A DNA stretch of 64,000 nt, taken from Alteromonadaceae bacterium. GTDB lineage: Bacteria > Pseudomonadota > Gammaproteobacteria > Enterobacterales > Alteromonadaceae. Under the pieces are notes generated by a model, which saw nothing but the letters and a program-made list of their open reading frames with translations, had not been told where the DNA came from and searched no databases. Below are positions 4,003 to 48,839 of this stretch, piece after piece. A program made the position numbers and the translations under genes. Positions within the stretch are counted from its first letter, which is position 1; the number at the start of each line of letters is the position of its first letter. The stretch is from NCBI GenBank assembly GCA_013373625.1, contig JABXHM010000047.1, positions 1 to 64,000 on the forward strand, in the 5' to 3' direction.

Positions 4003-6612
4003 ATGGCAGATGTATCCATTGAAAAACTCGCCAGTGATATCGGGACTAGCGTTGACCGGTTAGTGAGTCAGTTTAGTGATGCCGGCATTAAAAAAGCCGC
4101 CGGTGAAAATGTGACTGAAGATGAGAAACGCAAATTGTTGGACCACCTGAGCAAACAGCACGGTGGATCAACCGGGGGTGAACCTACCAAAATGACGCTG
4201 CAACGTAAAACGACCAGCACATTGAGTTTAGGTAAATCCAAAGCAGTTAAAGTAGAAGTGCGTAAAAAGCGTACCTACGTTAAACGTACCGACGTGGAAG
4301 AACAGCGCTTAGCAGAAGAAGAAGCCAAGCGTCAGGCTGAAGAAGCACGTGCCAAGCGTGAAGCTGAAGAGCGCGCAGCAGAAGAAGCCCGCAAAGCAGC
4401 TGAAGAGAAGGCGCGTAAAGCTGCCGAATCTCGCAAAGCCGCTGAAGAAGAAAAAGCCCGTCGGGCTGAAAAAGCGAAGCAAGAAGCTGCCGCTCGACAA
4501 GAAGCAGAATCTGAACTGACCGACGAAGAAAGAAAAGAGCAAGAAGCTGCGCGTCAGGAAGAAGAGCGTTTACGTAAACAGCAGGAAGAAGAAGCCCAAC
4601 GTAAACTCGAAGAAGATGCTAAGAAAGCCGCTGAAGAAGCGCGTAAATTAGCGGAAGAAAACGAGCGCCGCTGGAAAGAAGAAGAAGAGCGTCGCAAGAA
4701 AGCTGAAGCAGAAGAAGTGCATATGCACTCTAATCGCTACGCGCAAGAAGCCGAAGATATCGAAGATATGCAGGTAGAGCGTTCTTCACGTCGCCGTAAA
4801 AAGCCGAAGAAAAACGCCAGTGAAAGCCTCAAACAGGGCTTCAATAAACCTGCAGCACCGGTTGAGCGGGTGGTTAAAATTGGCGAGACCATCACCGTGG
4901 GTGAATTGGCCAGCCGTTTGGCAATTAAGGTTCAGGAAGTCATTAAAGCCATGATGAAAATGGGCGAAATGGCAACCATTAATCAGGTGTTGGACCAGGA
5001 TACAGCTGTTTTAGTTGTTGAAGAAATGGGCCACAAATATGAACTGGTTAACGACAATGCGTTAGAAGACGAGTTGTTGGCAGGTTCAGGCACCGGAGAA
5101 AAAACTGGTCGTGCGCCGGTTGTCACCATCATGGGTCACGTTGACCACGGTAAAACATCACTGCTTGACTTTATTCGCCGCGCGAAAGTGGCCGATGGTG
5201 AAGCCGGTGGTATTACCCAGCACATTGGTGCTTACAGCGTAGAGACCGACAGTGGCAGAATTACCTTCCTGGATACACCTGGACACGCTGCGTTTACCGC
5301 AATGCGTGCACGTGGTGCGACGGCAACGGATATCGTTGTACTGGTTGTTGCTGCCGACGATGGTGTGATGCCGCAAACTAAAGAAGCTGTGCAGCATAGC
5401 CGCGCCGCTGGTGTACCGTTGATTATTGCCGTCAATAAGATGGATAAAGAAACAGCCGATCCGGATCGGGTTAAAACCGAACTGTCTCAACTGGAAGTTA
5501 TTTCAGAAGAGTGGGGCGGTGAGCACCAGTTTGTTAACGTATCGGCAAAAACCGGTATGGGTGTGGATGAGCTACTTGAAGCGATCTCTTTACAAGCCGA
5601 AGTACTGGATCTGCAAGCTACGCCGAAAGGTCCTGGCCGCGGTATCGTTATTGAATCGCGCCTGGATAAAGGCCGTGGTCCTGTTGCCTCAGTACTGGTG
5701 CAGGAAGGCGAAGTCAAAGCTGGCGATATCTTATTGTGTGGTGAGGAATACGGACGTGTTCGTGCTATGCGAGATGAAAATGGCCAGGATGTCAAAGTAG
5801 CCGGTCCATCAACGCCAGTAGAAGTACTTGGTCTGTCAGGCGTTCCTGTTGCGGGTGAAGATGCTTTGGTTGTTAAAGACGAGCGTAAAGCAAGAGAAGC
5901 GGCTGGCAAGCGTCATCAGAAAAAACGTGAGCTTAAACTGGCACGCCAGCAAAAAGCGAAGCTGGAGAACATGTTTGCCAACATGGAAGCTGGTGACGTT
6001 AGCGATTTGAATATCGTCCTTAAAGCTGACGTACAGGGTTCTGTAGAAGCAATTTCTGAGTCGCTGACCAAATTGTCTACCAGTGAAGTTAAAGTCAATA
6101 TCGTTGGTAGCGGTGTAGGTGGAATCACTGAAACTGATGCCAGTCTGGCAGCAGCGTCCAGTGCTATCGTCGTAGGCTTTAACGTTCGTGCTGATGCGAC
6201 GGCGCGTCGTGTTATTGAGGCTGAAGAAATCGACTTGCGTTACTACAGCGTTATTTACGACCTGATTGACGAAGTAAAAGCAGCGATGAGCGGTATGCTT
6301 GCCCCTGAATTCAAACAGGAAATCATGGGTCTTGCCGAAGTACGTGATGTCTTTAAGTCACCTAAAATTGGCGCAATTGCTGGTTGTATGGTTACTGAAG
6401 GTATTGTTAAACGTAGCAATCCAATCCGTGTTCTGCGTGAAAACGTGGTTATTTACGAAGGTGAGCTTGAATCACTGCGTCGCTTTAAAGACGACGTACA
6501 GGAAGTGCGTAACGGTATGGAATGTGGTATCGGTGTTAAAAACTACAACGATGTAAAAGTGGGTGACCAAATTGAGGTCTTCCAAATTGTTGAAGTAAAA
6601 CGCGAAATCTAA
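4003..6612 (+). CDS. infB: Translation initiation factor IF-2
   Basis: IF-2 is the GTPase that places initiator fMet-tRNA on the 30S subunit and promotes subunit joining. The 869-residue protein has the IF2 N-terminal domains and a long charged Lys/Glu/Ala-rich coil around residues 100-245. The GTP-binding domain shows G1 [13 protein letters not shown]3 DTPGHAAF and G4 NKMD, and domains II-IV follow, ending [15 protein letters not shown]. Length is close to E. coli IF2-alpha. Internal in-frame starts could give shorter isoforms as in E. coli, but none was singled out. It follows nusA by 24 bases. A GC-rich hairpin with T residues separates it from rbfA. Confidence 0.98.
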
Positions 6613-20896: not shown

Positions 20897-21460
20897 ATGG
20901 CTTTAATCAATACACAAATCAAACCATTCACAGCGAATGCATTTAAAGACGGCGAGCTGATTGAAGTAAGCAGCGAAGATATCCAGGGTAAATGGTCTGT
21001 ATTTGTTTTTTATCCAGCGGACTTCACCTTTGTTTGCCCAACCGAGTTAGGTGATATCGCTGACAAGTATGAAGAGCTGCAATCACGCGGTGTAGAAGTG
21101 TTCTCTGTTTCTACTGACACACACTTTACTCACGCTGCATGGCACGAAGCCTCTGAAACCATTGGTAAAATCAAGTTTGCCATGATTGGTGACCCAACAG
21201 GTACCATTACTCGCAACTTCGATTGTATGCGTGAAGACATGGGCCTTGCTGATCGTGCAACCTTTGTTGTTGACCCTGACGGCATTGTCCAGGCAATGGA
21301 AATTACTGCTGAAGGTATTGGCCGTGACGCAGATGATCTGGTTCGTAAAGTTAAAGCGGCACAGTACGTTGCGTCTCACCCGGGTGAAGTTTGCCCAGCG
21401 AAATGGAAAGAAGGCGAAGCAACACTGGCTCCTTCATTAGACTTAGTTGGCAAAATCTAA
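20897..21460 (+). CDS. ahpC: Alkyl hydroperoxide reductase subunit C (typical 2-Cys peroxiredoxin)
   Basis: AhpC reduces H2O2, organic peroxides and peroxynitrite in the cytoplasm. The 187-residue product has the peroxidatic cysteine C47 in [10 protein letters not shown] and the resolving cysteine near residue 166 in GEVCPAKW, matching C46/C165 of E. coli. A TAGGAGAAAG ribosome binding site lies before the ATG. The reductase gene ahpF follows after 99 bases, which contain a perfect hairpin. In enteric bacteria the pair is controlled by OxyR; that is likely but not visible here. Confidence 0.97.
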
Positions 21461-45254: not shown

Positions 45255-45499
45255 AATAACTGTCCTTGCGAGATGGCCAGAGGTATGTATAAACCATGGT
45301 GATTACAGTTGTTTTTACCTTATCGCATGTATGGTGCAGGGTGAAATCATTTCACTGAATTGAGCAATATAAACCGCTGTGAGTTGACTTTATTTATTAC
45401 AAAATGAGGGGGAGCATTCAGACAATTTTTGGATTAATGGTGAAGCACAGCGCAACTGGCATTGTCTGCACTTCACCTGGCAGGTCAGGCGGGCCTGAC

Positions 45500-45853
45500 T
45501 TAGTGGCGCTTAAAAGGAGGACGTCCTTTAAAGTCGGTAGCTTTCGTTTCGTCGCTGACTTCAAATTGCGCCATATCCACCATTTCAACGCACTCTGTGG
45601 AGCGTTTGAACGGCGGTTTACCGCGCATATTGACAACTTTTACTTCTTCGCAGTTTGCTGCACTGACTGTTTCAAACTGGGCAACATCAACACCTTTAGC
45701 CTGCACAAAACTGCGTTTGAATGGTGGCTTACCACTGCGCTCTACCACCATAAGTTTGCTGTCTTCACTGCTTAAAAATGGTGCAGCAGTAATTTCTGTG
45801 TGCATCGTGGCGAGGCAAGTAAGGGCAATCACAGGCAATAATTGTAACTTCAT
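45500..45853 (-). CDS. Small secreted protein with three GKPPFKR repeats
   Basis: No named family is recognised. The 117-residue precursor has a signal peptide (MKLQLLPVIALTCLATMHTE, cleavage near ITAA-PF) and three copies of a G(K/R)PPFKR motif at residues 41-47, 78-84 and 110-116, the last almost at the C-terminus. The first two are followed by a related VDVAQFE/VDMAQFE block, so the unit is a duplicated segment of about 32-37 residues. Two mature cysteines (C68, C88) may pair. The repeated basic KR could be processing sites, but that is a guess. AAGGA precedes the ATG. A short hairpin (GTCAGGC/GCCTGAC, 45484-45499) lies directly after the stop. Confidence 0.75.
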   Translation of the reverse strand: MKLQLLPVIALTCLATMHTEITAAPFLSSEDSKLMVVERSGKPPFKRSFVQAKGVDVAQFETVSAANCEEVKVVNMRGKPPFKRSTECVEMVDMAQFEVSDETKATDFKGRPPFKRH

Positions 45854-46172
45854 ATAAATGTCCTTGATAGTTATTGGAATCGCTACATAAAACGTTATTT
45901 TTAGTGTTCTGTGGCGAAGTGTAATCAACCTTTTTATAAATATTAACAGCTGCTCGTGATAGTTTTATTCTATAAGAAGGGGTAATAACGTAGGACTTTC
46001 TGATGAGCCGGTGATGCATTGCTTGTATTTGGTGCGAGTATGTACATTAATGGTGCGCTCTGGGTGGTGCTGTGCAGAGGAACACTTTACAAATCATAAG
46101 CTTGTAACATGGTGCTTAACTTGCTGCTTTAACTGCATTGGTGTCTGTTGTCATTGATCTGCGGGAGTAAGC
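45854..46172. other. Divergent intergenic region
   Basis: This gap separates the GKPPFKR-repeat gene (leftwards) from the retropepsin gene (rightwards). It is AT-rich near 45920-45980 and must hold both promoters; no certain boxes were chosen. No hidden gene was seen. Confidence 0.5.
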
Positions 46173-46670
46173 ATGCGGCATGTATTGTTTCGACGTGTTT
46201 TGGGGAGCATCGTATTAGTATTGGCTGCGGCGCAGGCCCATGCGGTGTCATTTTCGCTGAGTACCAGTGAAGGGGGCACACTGTATTTAGGTAATGCAAC
46301 GGATGAGCAATCTTATTTCCTGCTTGATACGGGCTCGTCGATGACCGTGTTGACCCGCGATACATTTAATCAATTAAAAAAACAACAAGCGGTTACCGAA
46401 GCTGGCCTTGTTGTGGCAAAACTGGCCAATGGGCGCAAGCAACGGGTTCAGTTGTACAACATACCGCTGTTATCGCTGGGTAAAAGCTGTCATTTCAGCA
46501 ACGTCAGCGTGGCGGTAATGGATACCGGGCATAATATTCTCGGCATGGAAGTGTTAAGCCGGGCTGCTCCCATCAGCATTGCTCTGGCACCAGCAACCCT
46601 GACGCTAAATCAGTGTGATAATGCACATACTGCAATGATGGAATCTACCGCACATACTGATGCGCGCTAA
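46173..46670 (+). CDS. Periplasmic retropepsin-like aspartic protease
   Basis: The 165-residue product has a signal peptide ending AHA-VSF and a retropepsin-type fold: the catalytic motif FLLDTGSSMTVL (D52), the flap-like KLANGRKQRVQLYNIPLLSL, and the ILGMEVLSR segment that corresponds to the ILG motif of retroviral-type proteases. One domain means that an active enzyme must be a dimer. Such bacterial proteins (TIGR02281-like and DUF4124 neighbours) are poorly studied. GGGAG precedes the ATG. It stands divergent from the GKPPFKR-repeat gene, so a processing role on that peptide is conceivable but unproven. Confidence 0.85.
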   Translation: MRHVLFRRVLGSIVLVLAAAQAHAVSFSLSTSEGGTLYLGNATDEQSYFLLDTGSSMTVLTRDTFNQLKKQQAVTEAGLVVAKLANGRKQRVQLYNIPLLSLGKSCHFSNVSVAVMDTGHNILGMEVLSRAAPISIALAPATLTLNQCDNAHTAMMESTAHTDAR

Positions 46671-47768: not shown

Positions 47769-48095
47769 AATCTGGTTCCTTTAGATTAATTCTAATTCAG
47801 CCTATCACAAAAAATATCCATGTACATCAGAGTGTTAGTTAATTACTCGTGAACAAAGCTATTGTTATGTAACGGCTGGCTGCGCTAACTCATAATCTTG
47901 CCTGATGACCAATTGGACTGTCAGGTTGTTTTACAAAAAAAGTAATAAAATGTAGTGTTGATATGTAGTCTATTGTTTTTATTTGCATTTTAAAATATGG
48001 AGTCATTTTTGCATTATGTTGGGTTAATGCACTTTTGAATTAAAGGACCGTTATCTTTCTCAAAGGTAATGTTGCATATAAATAGGACGATAAAC
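47769..48095. other. Divergent intergenic region before the PEP-CTERM gene
   Basis: AT-rich sequence with T-runs and no recognisable gene. It should contain the promoters of the lipoprotein hydrolase and the PEP-CTERM gene. An AGGAC ribosome binding site lies at its right edge. Confidence 0.5.
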
Positions 48096-48839
48096 ATGTC
48101 TTTCATTAAAAAACTACTTATAGCTTTGACTATACTACCATCGCTAACGCAAGCGGCTTTAATTACTTCCTACACAGACAGAACCTCTTTTGTTGCTGCT
48201 CTTGGCGGTTTGGCAACGATCGAAGAAGATTTTAATGGCCTGTCAGAGAGTCTCTTTACCTCGGCATTCGACCTCAATTTAGGAGATTTCTCTATTGCAT
48301 CAAATGACGTTGCAGGTGACTCAATCGGTGTTCGTGATCTTGTTACTACAAACGGAAGCTACTTTACCCCGACACATCCTGAAAACGATAGTGTGGACGG
48401 CACACGATTTTTTGGTATAAATGGCTCAAGCGGGGGGCCGAGTTTTACGGTTAGCTTTTCTACAGAGCGCTTCGTCTTCGGCTTTGACTGGTTAGACGGC
48501 GATGTGACTGATTCATATGCAATGAGTGTATTGGGTGAGGTGTTTGAAAATCCGCCTTTTGACAATACCTGGGATGAGAATTCTCAGTACAGAGGATTCT
48601 TTGGTATTGTATCTGACACAGCGTTTACTGAAATCTCATTTTACCAAACTGATGCCGGTGGAACTATTGCTGGTTTTGGCATTGATAACCTGATTACATC
48701 TCAGGTTAATATTGTTACTTGTGCTGAAAACCCTTCACTGCCTGAGTGTGTAACACCGGATCTGCCAGAACCTTCAGCATTAGCACTTCTTAGCTTAGGC
48801 TTAATTGGTTTATACATTCGTCGAAAAAAGCAGTTGTAG
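48096..48839 (+). CDS. PEP-CTERM sorting-domain exported protein
   Basis: The 247-residue product has a signal peptide (MSFIKKLLIALTILPSLTQA), a beta-rich middle with acidic and aromatic residues (FGFDWLDGDVTDSYAMSV), and a C-terminal PEP-CTERM signal: LPEPSALALLSLGLIGLYIR followed by a basic tail RKKQL. PEP-CTERM proteins are processed by exosortase and linked to exopolysaccharide or biofilm. No exosortase gene is in the window. The middle domain is not named but resembles other PEP-CTERM passenger domains. The start is placed at 48096, after AGGAC, rather than at an in-frame codon at 48069. Confidence 0.88.
   Translation: MSFIKKLLIALTILPSLTQAALITSYTDRTSFVAALGGLATIEEDFNGLSESLFTSAFDLNLGDFSIASNDVAGDSIGVRDLVTTNGSYFTPTHPENDSVDGTRFFGINGSSGGPSFTVSFSTERFVFGFDWLDGDVTDSYAMSVLGEVFENPPFDNTWDENSQYRGFFGIVSDTAFTEISFYQTDAGGTIAGFGIDNLITSQVNIVTCAENPSLPECVTPDLPEPSALALLSLGLIGLYIRRKKQL

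Follow-up and report, generated by a model that had tools for sequence, protein, structure and literature searches.

We analyzed a 64,000-nucleotide stretch of DNA (the window; all coordinates are positions within it) from contig JABXHM010000047.1 of the assembly GCA_013373625.1 of a marine Alteromonadaceae bacterium. A gene on its minus strand encodes a protein of 117 residues, in which three copies of a G(K/R)PPFKR motif alternate with two copies of an AQFE-containing block, and a gene for a retropepsin-like aspartic protease lies next to it in divergent orientation. The small protein, hereafter the partner, is one half of a conserved two-gene module. The features of the locus are the following.

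45500 to 45853, minus strand: gene of the three-motif partner protein (117-residue translation; stop codon at 45500 to 45502)
45782 to 45853, minus strand: signal peptide, residues 1 to 24, judged by eye (basic start, hydrophobic core, small residues at the end)
45713 to 45733, minus strand: motif 1, GKPPFKR, residues 41 to 47, at a predicted beta-hairpin turn
45671 to 45688, minus strand: block 1, DVAQFE, residues 56 to 61, candidate protease recognition site
45650 to 45652, minus strand: Cys68, before motif 2, forming a pair with Cys87
45602 to 45622, minus strand: motif 2, GKPPFKR, residues 78 to 84, in predicted hairpin 2
45593 to 45595, minus strand: Cys87, after motif 2, forming a pair with Cys68
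45560 to 45577, minus strand: block 2, DMAQFE, residues 93 to 98, candidate protease recognition site
45506 to 45526, minus strand: motif 3, GRPPFKR, residues 110 to 116, at the C-terminus, one residue before the end
45959 to 45973, no strand: operator-like inverted repeat ATAG-N7-CTAT, the sole exact match in the window
46173 to 46670, plus strand: gene of the retropepsin-like aspartic protease, 165 residues with a similar signal-like start, matching PF13650 and PF13975 above cut-off
46326 to 46334, plus strand: catalytic DTG of the protease, residues 52 to 54, invariant in 22 of 22 aligned members

The original prediction had described a protein of 117 residues that carries the G(K/R)PPFKR motif three times along with a duplicated AQFE block, and the translation bears this description out. 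The open reading frame stands, but the coordinate 45484 lies 16 bases beyond the stop codon, and the last repeat, said to be at the very C-terminus, is near-terminal, with one of the 117 residues left after it. Judging by eye from its signal-peptide-like start, the partner is apparently exported. When the mature partner sequence was shuffled 200,000 times, at least one PPFKR arose in 50 shuffles and two arose in none. Codings of PPFKR occur seven times in the bacterium's own genome, three times in the partner gene and four times elsewhere; the reversed control pattern gave five and six matches on the two strands. The four extra matches all lie in frames of 13 to 78 codons, and other PPFKR carriers of this genome were rejected as further substrates. 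Ratios of nonsynonymous to synonymous substitution rates (dN/dS) of the partner gene range from 0.02 to 0.31 in the 10 of 11 pairs for which they were computable (one pair gave no dS, and dS exceeded 1, near saturation, in five of the other 10), which points to purifying selection. Because the minus-strand frame is conserved and under purifying selection, an overlapping plus-strand open reading frame (45404 to 45775) is taken to be spurious.

The partner matches no Pfam family at or above cut-off, and NCBIfam gave only weak scattered matches (best E-value [E] of 0.019), each in one or two of 24 members, in keeping with the original statement that no family is recognized. Matches to glutathione synthetase, flagellar and other weak profiles were rejected as far under cut-off. 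A mobile-element origin was likewise rejected, with no match at E ≤ 0.01 in 72,556 plasmid and 50,697 phage records. The structure model of the partner is globally weak and locally fair: the predicted local distance difference test score (pLDDT) is 67 and the predicted template modeling score (pTM) 0.24 overall, while pLDDT is 78 for residues 31 to 40 and 87 for residues 41 to 50. The model contains strands at residues 31 to 38 and 46 to 53, and predicts two hairpins, each turning at GKPPF.

The divergent aspartic protease that had been placed about 320 bases away is confirmed, with 319 bases separating the starts of the two genes. The window protease matches PF13650 (E = 1.8e−10; 41.8 bits against a cut-off of 24.3) and PF13975 (39.9 bits against 28.2), and its structure model has a pLDDT of 85. 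A Foldseek search with this model gave the Rickettsia retropepsin-like protease 5c9f as the best PDB match (E = 2.4e−6), followed by HIV proteases, and the Rickettsia protease was also the best match of the sequence profile among solved structures (E = 4.4e−6). With Pfam matches above cut-off, a single DTG and a retropepsin fold, the neighbor belongs to the clan AA retropepsin-like proteases. The clan AA profile TIGR02281 matches all 22 protease members at E ≤ 0.01, and the window protease, at 26.4 bits, does not reach its cut-off of 57.95 bits. Membership in the RloA/RimB group is not indicated, as none of the four Pfam families that the window protease matches at E ≤ 1 is named as a zinc protease. 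In a midpoint-rooted FastTree tree that also includes 48 sister proteases, the 22 aligned proteases of the partner type group together in a single clade (support 0.991).

The two genes occur together. Clear matches to the partner were found in 25 of 60 genomes, its own included (E ≤ 2.4e−14), and a profile search raised this to 41 of 59 genomes of the genus, its own again included. The orthologous protease is present in the same 41 genomes (E ≤ 2.9e−48; next match 4e−9), 18 genomes have neither gene, and none has one alone (Fisher's exact test, P = 1.5e−15, with relatedness ignored). All 42 compared pairs are divergent, and the pair is kept while the other neighboring genes differ between clades. 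Outside the genus, the partner was detected in three genomes of the family sample (246 genomes), one of them weakly; in the order sample (394 genomes) its matches are confined to genus members. The class sample (369 genomes) added three convincing matches (G676, G770 and G885), all adjoining a protease; two weak ones (G861 and G666) were judged to be chance. Among named genomes, a scan with two peptide patterns, which is not exhaustive, gave 29 matches, mostly in Alteromonas and also in Salinimonas, Aestuariibacter, Pseudohongiella nitratireducens and several metagenome-assembled genomes (MAGs). The protease is present at all 29 loci, including that of Pseudohongiella and those of two distant MAGs. 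The pair recurs in distant Gammaproteobacteria, in some of them with a single-motif partner. The link of the partner to the divergent protease, raised in the original prediction, is very strong, and the module is real; we found no published description of it.

Partner-like genes without the protease are few. Genome G218 encodes a full-length partner with no protease in the surrounding 17 kb examined. In genus g29, three of 22 genomes (G173, G146 and G112) encode a diverged, weakly similar protein (E = 2e−6 to 0.012) in which the DxAQFE block is missing and the third of three PPF motifs is C-terminal; no protease lies in the 11 to 17 kb examined around these genes. Searches of these four whole genomes for the protease gave distant matches only (28.8 to 43.6 bits, against at least 164 bits for the genus orthologues). 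Possibly, the g29 loci derive from the locus of the pair and have lost the protease. The small exported-looking three-PPF genes of g29 are at 6401 to 6703 in L178, 8287 to 8589 in L180 and 6136 to 6420 in L179, representing three species. A gene for an M24-type peptidase follows the g29 gene in L178 and L180 and is 3 kb away in L179; such a gene also follows the full partner-protease pair in L072.

Motifs and blocks were counted in the 42 three-motif proteins among 50 distinct partner sequences, setting aside the three g29 proteins and five proteins with one or two motifs. (Alignment A1 omits L003, which has ambiguous letters, and alignments A2 [22] and A3 [28] are chosen diverse subsets.) The order motif-block-motif-block-motif holds in all 42, with zero to two residues after the third motif. 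The GKPPFKR motif and the three-copy layout are kept across the genus. One motif and one block are found in the distant members L108, L109, L165 and L166, and two motifs with two altered blocks in L164, the locus of G676. All 42 proteins end each of their three motifs in R, but the position just before this R holds K, R, E, T, Q or S. Three dibasic sites occur in 36 of the 42 proteins; the rest have E, T, Q or S in place of a K. Two cysteines flank motif 2 in 15 of the 50 distinct sequences, none in 35 and a single one in no sequence. In all 50, the two cysteines thus come or go together, possibly from a single origin; in the window protein they would form a Cys68-Cys87 disulfide. If hairpin 2 were cut at KR, the presumed disulfide would still hold the halves together. 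The original suggestion that KR marks cleavage sites is not supported, weakened as it is by the variable K and by the Cys pair around motif 2.

The block stands at a constant distance from its motif. The distance from the Pro-Pro pair to the D of the block is 13 for block 1 in 42 of 42 proteins and 13 for block 2 in 40; of the other two, one has a scripted value of 12 that is a regular-expression artefact (13 by eye) and one is unreadable (X). Block 1 fits the pattern [DE]-[VFMLI]-[AS]-x-[FLM]-[DE] in 41 of 42 proteins, the exception being DVVQFK in G218, whose genome has no orthologous protease. Of the 41 readable copies of block 2, 40 fit. The hexapeptide reads acid-hydrophobic-small, any-hydrophobic-acid and is nearly two-fold symmetric (pseudo-palindromic). 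The natural losses of the block (in the three g29 proteins and in G218), all in genomes without the orthologous protease, count for reading it as a recognition site.

To place this hexapeptide in a wider context, we read all 48 sister loci that remained from 56 protease matches in the class sample after excluding five of the partner type and three weak ones (50 to 61 bits). The partner profile has no match at E ≤ 0.01 in the genomes of these loci, and among 25 of the loci one neighbor matched it, at E = 0.066 (L199). Counting every frame of at least 50 codons, the strict form [DE]F[AS]xF[DE] occurs in 24 of 1033 frames within 600 bases of a sister protease, at 23 of the 48 loci (0.16 expected from shuffles), and in 4 of 1101 frames farther away (0.06 in shuffles). 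A looser form occurs in 33 frames within 600 bases (4.3 in shuffles) and in 10 farther off (3.9 in shuffles). By eye, 20 of the 24 strict carriers are EF-hand proteins (two of them profiled). The others are two secreted-looking PRC-barrel proteins (L236 and L251; Pfam E = 1.6e−12 and 8.3e−12), a repeat protein of secreted appearance that matches no Pfam family (L217), and a frame that ends in DFSAFEEVK and is not an EF-hand (L223). Looser forms include ELAIFE (L241), DMAKFE (L253), EMAKFE (L221, 706 bases away), ELSAME (L229) and EIAALE (L245); a few other loose matches look like chance. As a control, the hexapeptide is found in none of five secreted-looking plasmid EF-hand proteins, two of which are near-identical. 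The AQFE block is a better candidate for the protease site than KR because it recurs in unrelated proteins beside sister proteases and is absent from the weakly similar proteins of the three g29 genomes, which have no orthologous protease.

Some of these neighbors have repeats of their own. An open reading frame 63 bases from the sister protease in L217 contains the unit AEFA(K/P)F twice, and after each copy come a TT(K/E)FEQQL stretch and a PDE segment; its product is possibly another multi-copy partner. Similar-looking frames in L223 and L229 end in C-x-GKRG-x-C followed by V(D/E)(F/L)SA(F/M)E, an order that recalls motif 2 of the window protein, with its flanking cysteines, and the block 2 after it. 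In L252, a multi-EF-hand protein with three EFA(R/Q)FE copies is encoded 87 bases from the sister protease, and a second EFA(R/Q)FE multi-EF-hand gene lies 815 bases away.

The inverted repeat ATAG-N7-CTAT lies between the two genes of the window, closer to the partner. With start codons set by a rule of thumb, an exact copy is present in 39 of the 47 distinct intergenic regions compared, against 0.9% of shuffles; if one mismatch is allowed, the counts rise to 43 regions and about 20% of shuffles. The repeat is unrecognizable in L017, L023, L038 and L106. Excerpts of work on OxyR (PMC5720770) give the OxyR site as ATAG-N7-CTAT-N7-ATAG-N7-CTAT, that is, two units seven bases apart; the unit is common to the genes controlled by OxyR and to those studied here, which have one unit instead of the canonical two. 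A canonical tandem site was rejected, as a second unit at +22 or −22 has mean scores of 2.09 and 1.83 of 8, which is background level. There is no exact ATAG-N7-CTAT beside the peroxiredoxin-like gene (named by eye) at 20897 of the window. In five distant loci (L108, L109, L169, L170 and L171), an OxyR-like LysR gene is located tail to tail with the protease; in the three that were profiled, OxyR is the best NCBIfam match, under its cut-off (152, 191 and 151 bits against 329). This LysR protein may be the regulator of the site, and control of the module by OxyR or a relative is possible. A different-looking LysR gene occupies the same place beside the protease in the genus locus L077. Elsewhere in the window, two genes beyond the protease, a protein encoded at 48069 to 48839 has a tail that looks PEP-CTERM-like by eye (PEPSALALLSLGLIGLYIRRKKQL).

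We hypothesize, at about even confidence, that the partner is dedicated to the adjoining protease, most likely as its substrate, and is recognized at the hexapeptide. Both proteins are probably exported, as their signal-like starts suggest, and both genes are probably controlled from the shared ATAG-N7-CTAT operator. The protease would be expected to act as a two-fold symmetric homodimer and to bind the pseudo-palindromic [DE]-hydrophobic-[AS]-x-[FLM]-[DE], here DVAQFE and DMAQFE. It would probably cut near the center of the hexapeptide, for example at A58/Q59 and A95/Q96, and the two cuts would release three fragments, every one carrying a single GKPPFKR. Two of them would be beta-hairpins that present the motif at their turn. 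That these fragments serve as a signal or envelope-stress peptide is a guess. The cleft of a retropepsin dimer is two-fold symmetric, and we read the block as a recognition site, most likely the site of cleavage, because the symmetry of the hexapeptide suits such a cleft; the published RloA model points the same way. A broader proposal, to which we give somewhat less than even weight, is that exported retropepsins of this group recognize a common hexapeptide tag on dedicated neighbors of unrelated fold, with the payload being exchangeable. The tagged proteins would then include, equally tentatively, the tandem GKPPFKR hairpins, EF-hand and PRC-barrel proteins and the unnamed proteins.

Two other roles for the partner are unlikely, though each accounts for part of the data. 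The partner could be an inhibitor or pseudosubstrate that restrains the exported protease, its Pro-Pro-turn hairpins or its blocks lying in or over the active site. We lean toward this idea to the extent that we do because the orthologous protease was found without the partner in none of the 59 genomes of the genus, while G218 has a partner, and three g29 genomes a diverged form of it, without the protease. Pro-Pro hairpin turns with a likely disulfide also recall canonical inhibitor loops. However, a linear hexapeptide common to different folds fits a shared recognition or cleavage site more naturally than a folded inhibitor, and the lack of a Pfam family at cut-off also speaks against inhibition. 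Comparably doubtful is the idea that co-regulation is all that links the partner, as a small folded envelope protein, to the protease, with the hexapeptide likeness arising from EF-hand sequence and chance. The operator-like site shared between the genes, the prevalence of EF-hand proteins among the sister-locus carriers and the predicted hairpins, which suggest a structural role for the motifs, would all agree with it, but it poorly explains the 41-of-41 co-occurrence with adjacency kept across changing neighborhoods, and the strict hexapeptide is also found in two PRC-barrel and two non-EF-hand proteins (L217 and L223).

Highly improbable, in our view, is a multi-copy precursor cut at KR to give peptides ending in PPFKR. 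The last motif lies zero to two residues from the C-terminus in all 42 proteins, as if fragments ended in PPFKR, and the R of each motif is invariant; the K, however, is unconserved, 15 of the 50 sequences, the window protein included, have motif 2 enclosed by two cysteines, and the neighbor is an aspartic protease, a class that normally shows no preference for basic residues. Compared with known multi-copy precursors, the repeated, conserved payload is present (with export judged by eye), whereas conserved dibasic cleavage sites are not. The resemblance noted in the original prediction survives in altered form: the layout is plausible and the partner protease is likely the right one, but the cut site is probably a different one.

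Several observations weigh against our preferred reading of the partner as a substrate recognized at the hexapeptide. Docking or inhibition would leave the same traces of conservation; cleavage is inferred, and the asymmetry between partner and protease leans toward inhibition. G105 has the protease, divergent from its partner like the others, yet its block 2 reads DVAQFK, and G676 has the protease with both blocks (DMARQE and DTAVME) outside the pattern. The single-motif, single-block partners of L108, L109, L165 and L166 indicate that multi-copy release is not general. The pairing counts take no account of relatedness among the genomes, and the structure model of the partner is weak (pLDDT 67, pTM 0.24). 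Within 600 bases, 25 of the 48 sister loci have no strict hexapeptide. Part of the hexapeptide is also fold-driven, because most carriers (20 of 24) are EF-hand proteins, in which EF begins the exiting helix, and the EF-hand background consists of five plasmid proteins only, selected among 47 records that matched.

Little is known of the natural substrates of exported bacterial retropepsins, and the gene pairing described here points to a definite partner and a six-residue recognition site. If the common-tag proposal is true, a set of proteins of unrelated folds would share one protease tag. In the literature, we found no occurrence of GKPPFKR, RGKPPF or KPPFKR, no PPFKR as a whole word among the matches listed, and no account of a bacterial periplasmic aspartic protease with an inhibitor in its operon. 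The letter strings EFSAFE, SEFSAFE and EFARFE matched only entries whose titles, taken alone, are unrelated. A system of a protease with tagged cargo was not found in print.

Among known systems, multi-copy peptide precursors are likewise exported and have a repeated payload motif separated by repeated short blocks. They are cut at dibasic sites, whereas the candidate site here is [DE]-hydrophobic-[AS]-x-[FLM]-[DE], single-copy forms exist, and processing is presumed. The closest solved relative of the protease, by both sequence and fold, is the Rickettsia retropepsin-like protease (5c9b, 5c9d and 5c9f; the ApRick protease, APRc). The RloA peptidases of Pseudomonas aeruginosa, as described in excerpts of PMC12239564, are likewise exported bacterial DTG aspartic proteases with a retropepsin-like fold. 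Their operon partners RloB (transmembrane) and RloC (cytoplasmic) differ from the small exported partner found here. In the same excerpts, RloA cleaves reporters that contain 8 or 10 Glu when assayed in vitro; the sole genome-encoded candidate substrate tested was not cut (section 8). RloA dimers are modeled by its authors with AlphaFold2 as making pseudosymmetric contacts to an acidic peptide, and such contacts are what the hexapeptide described here would need.
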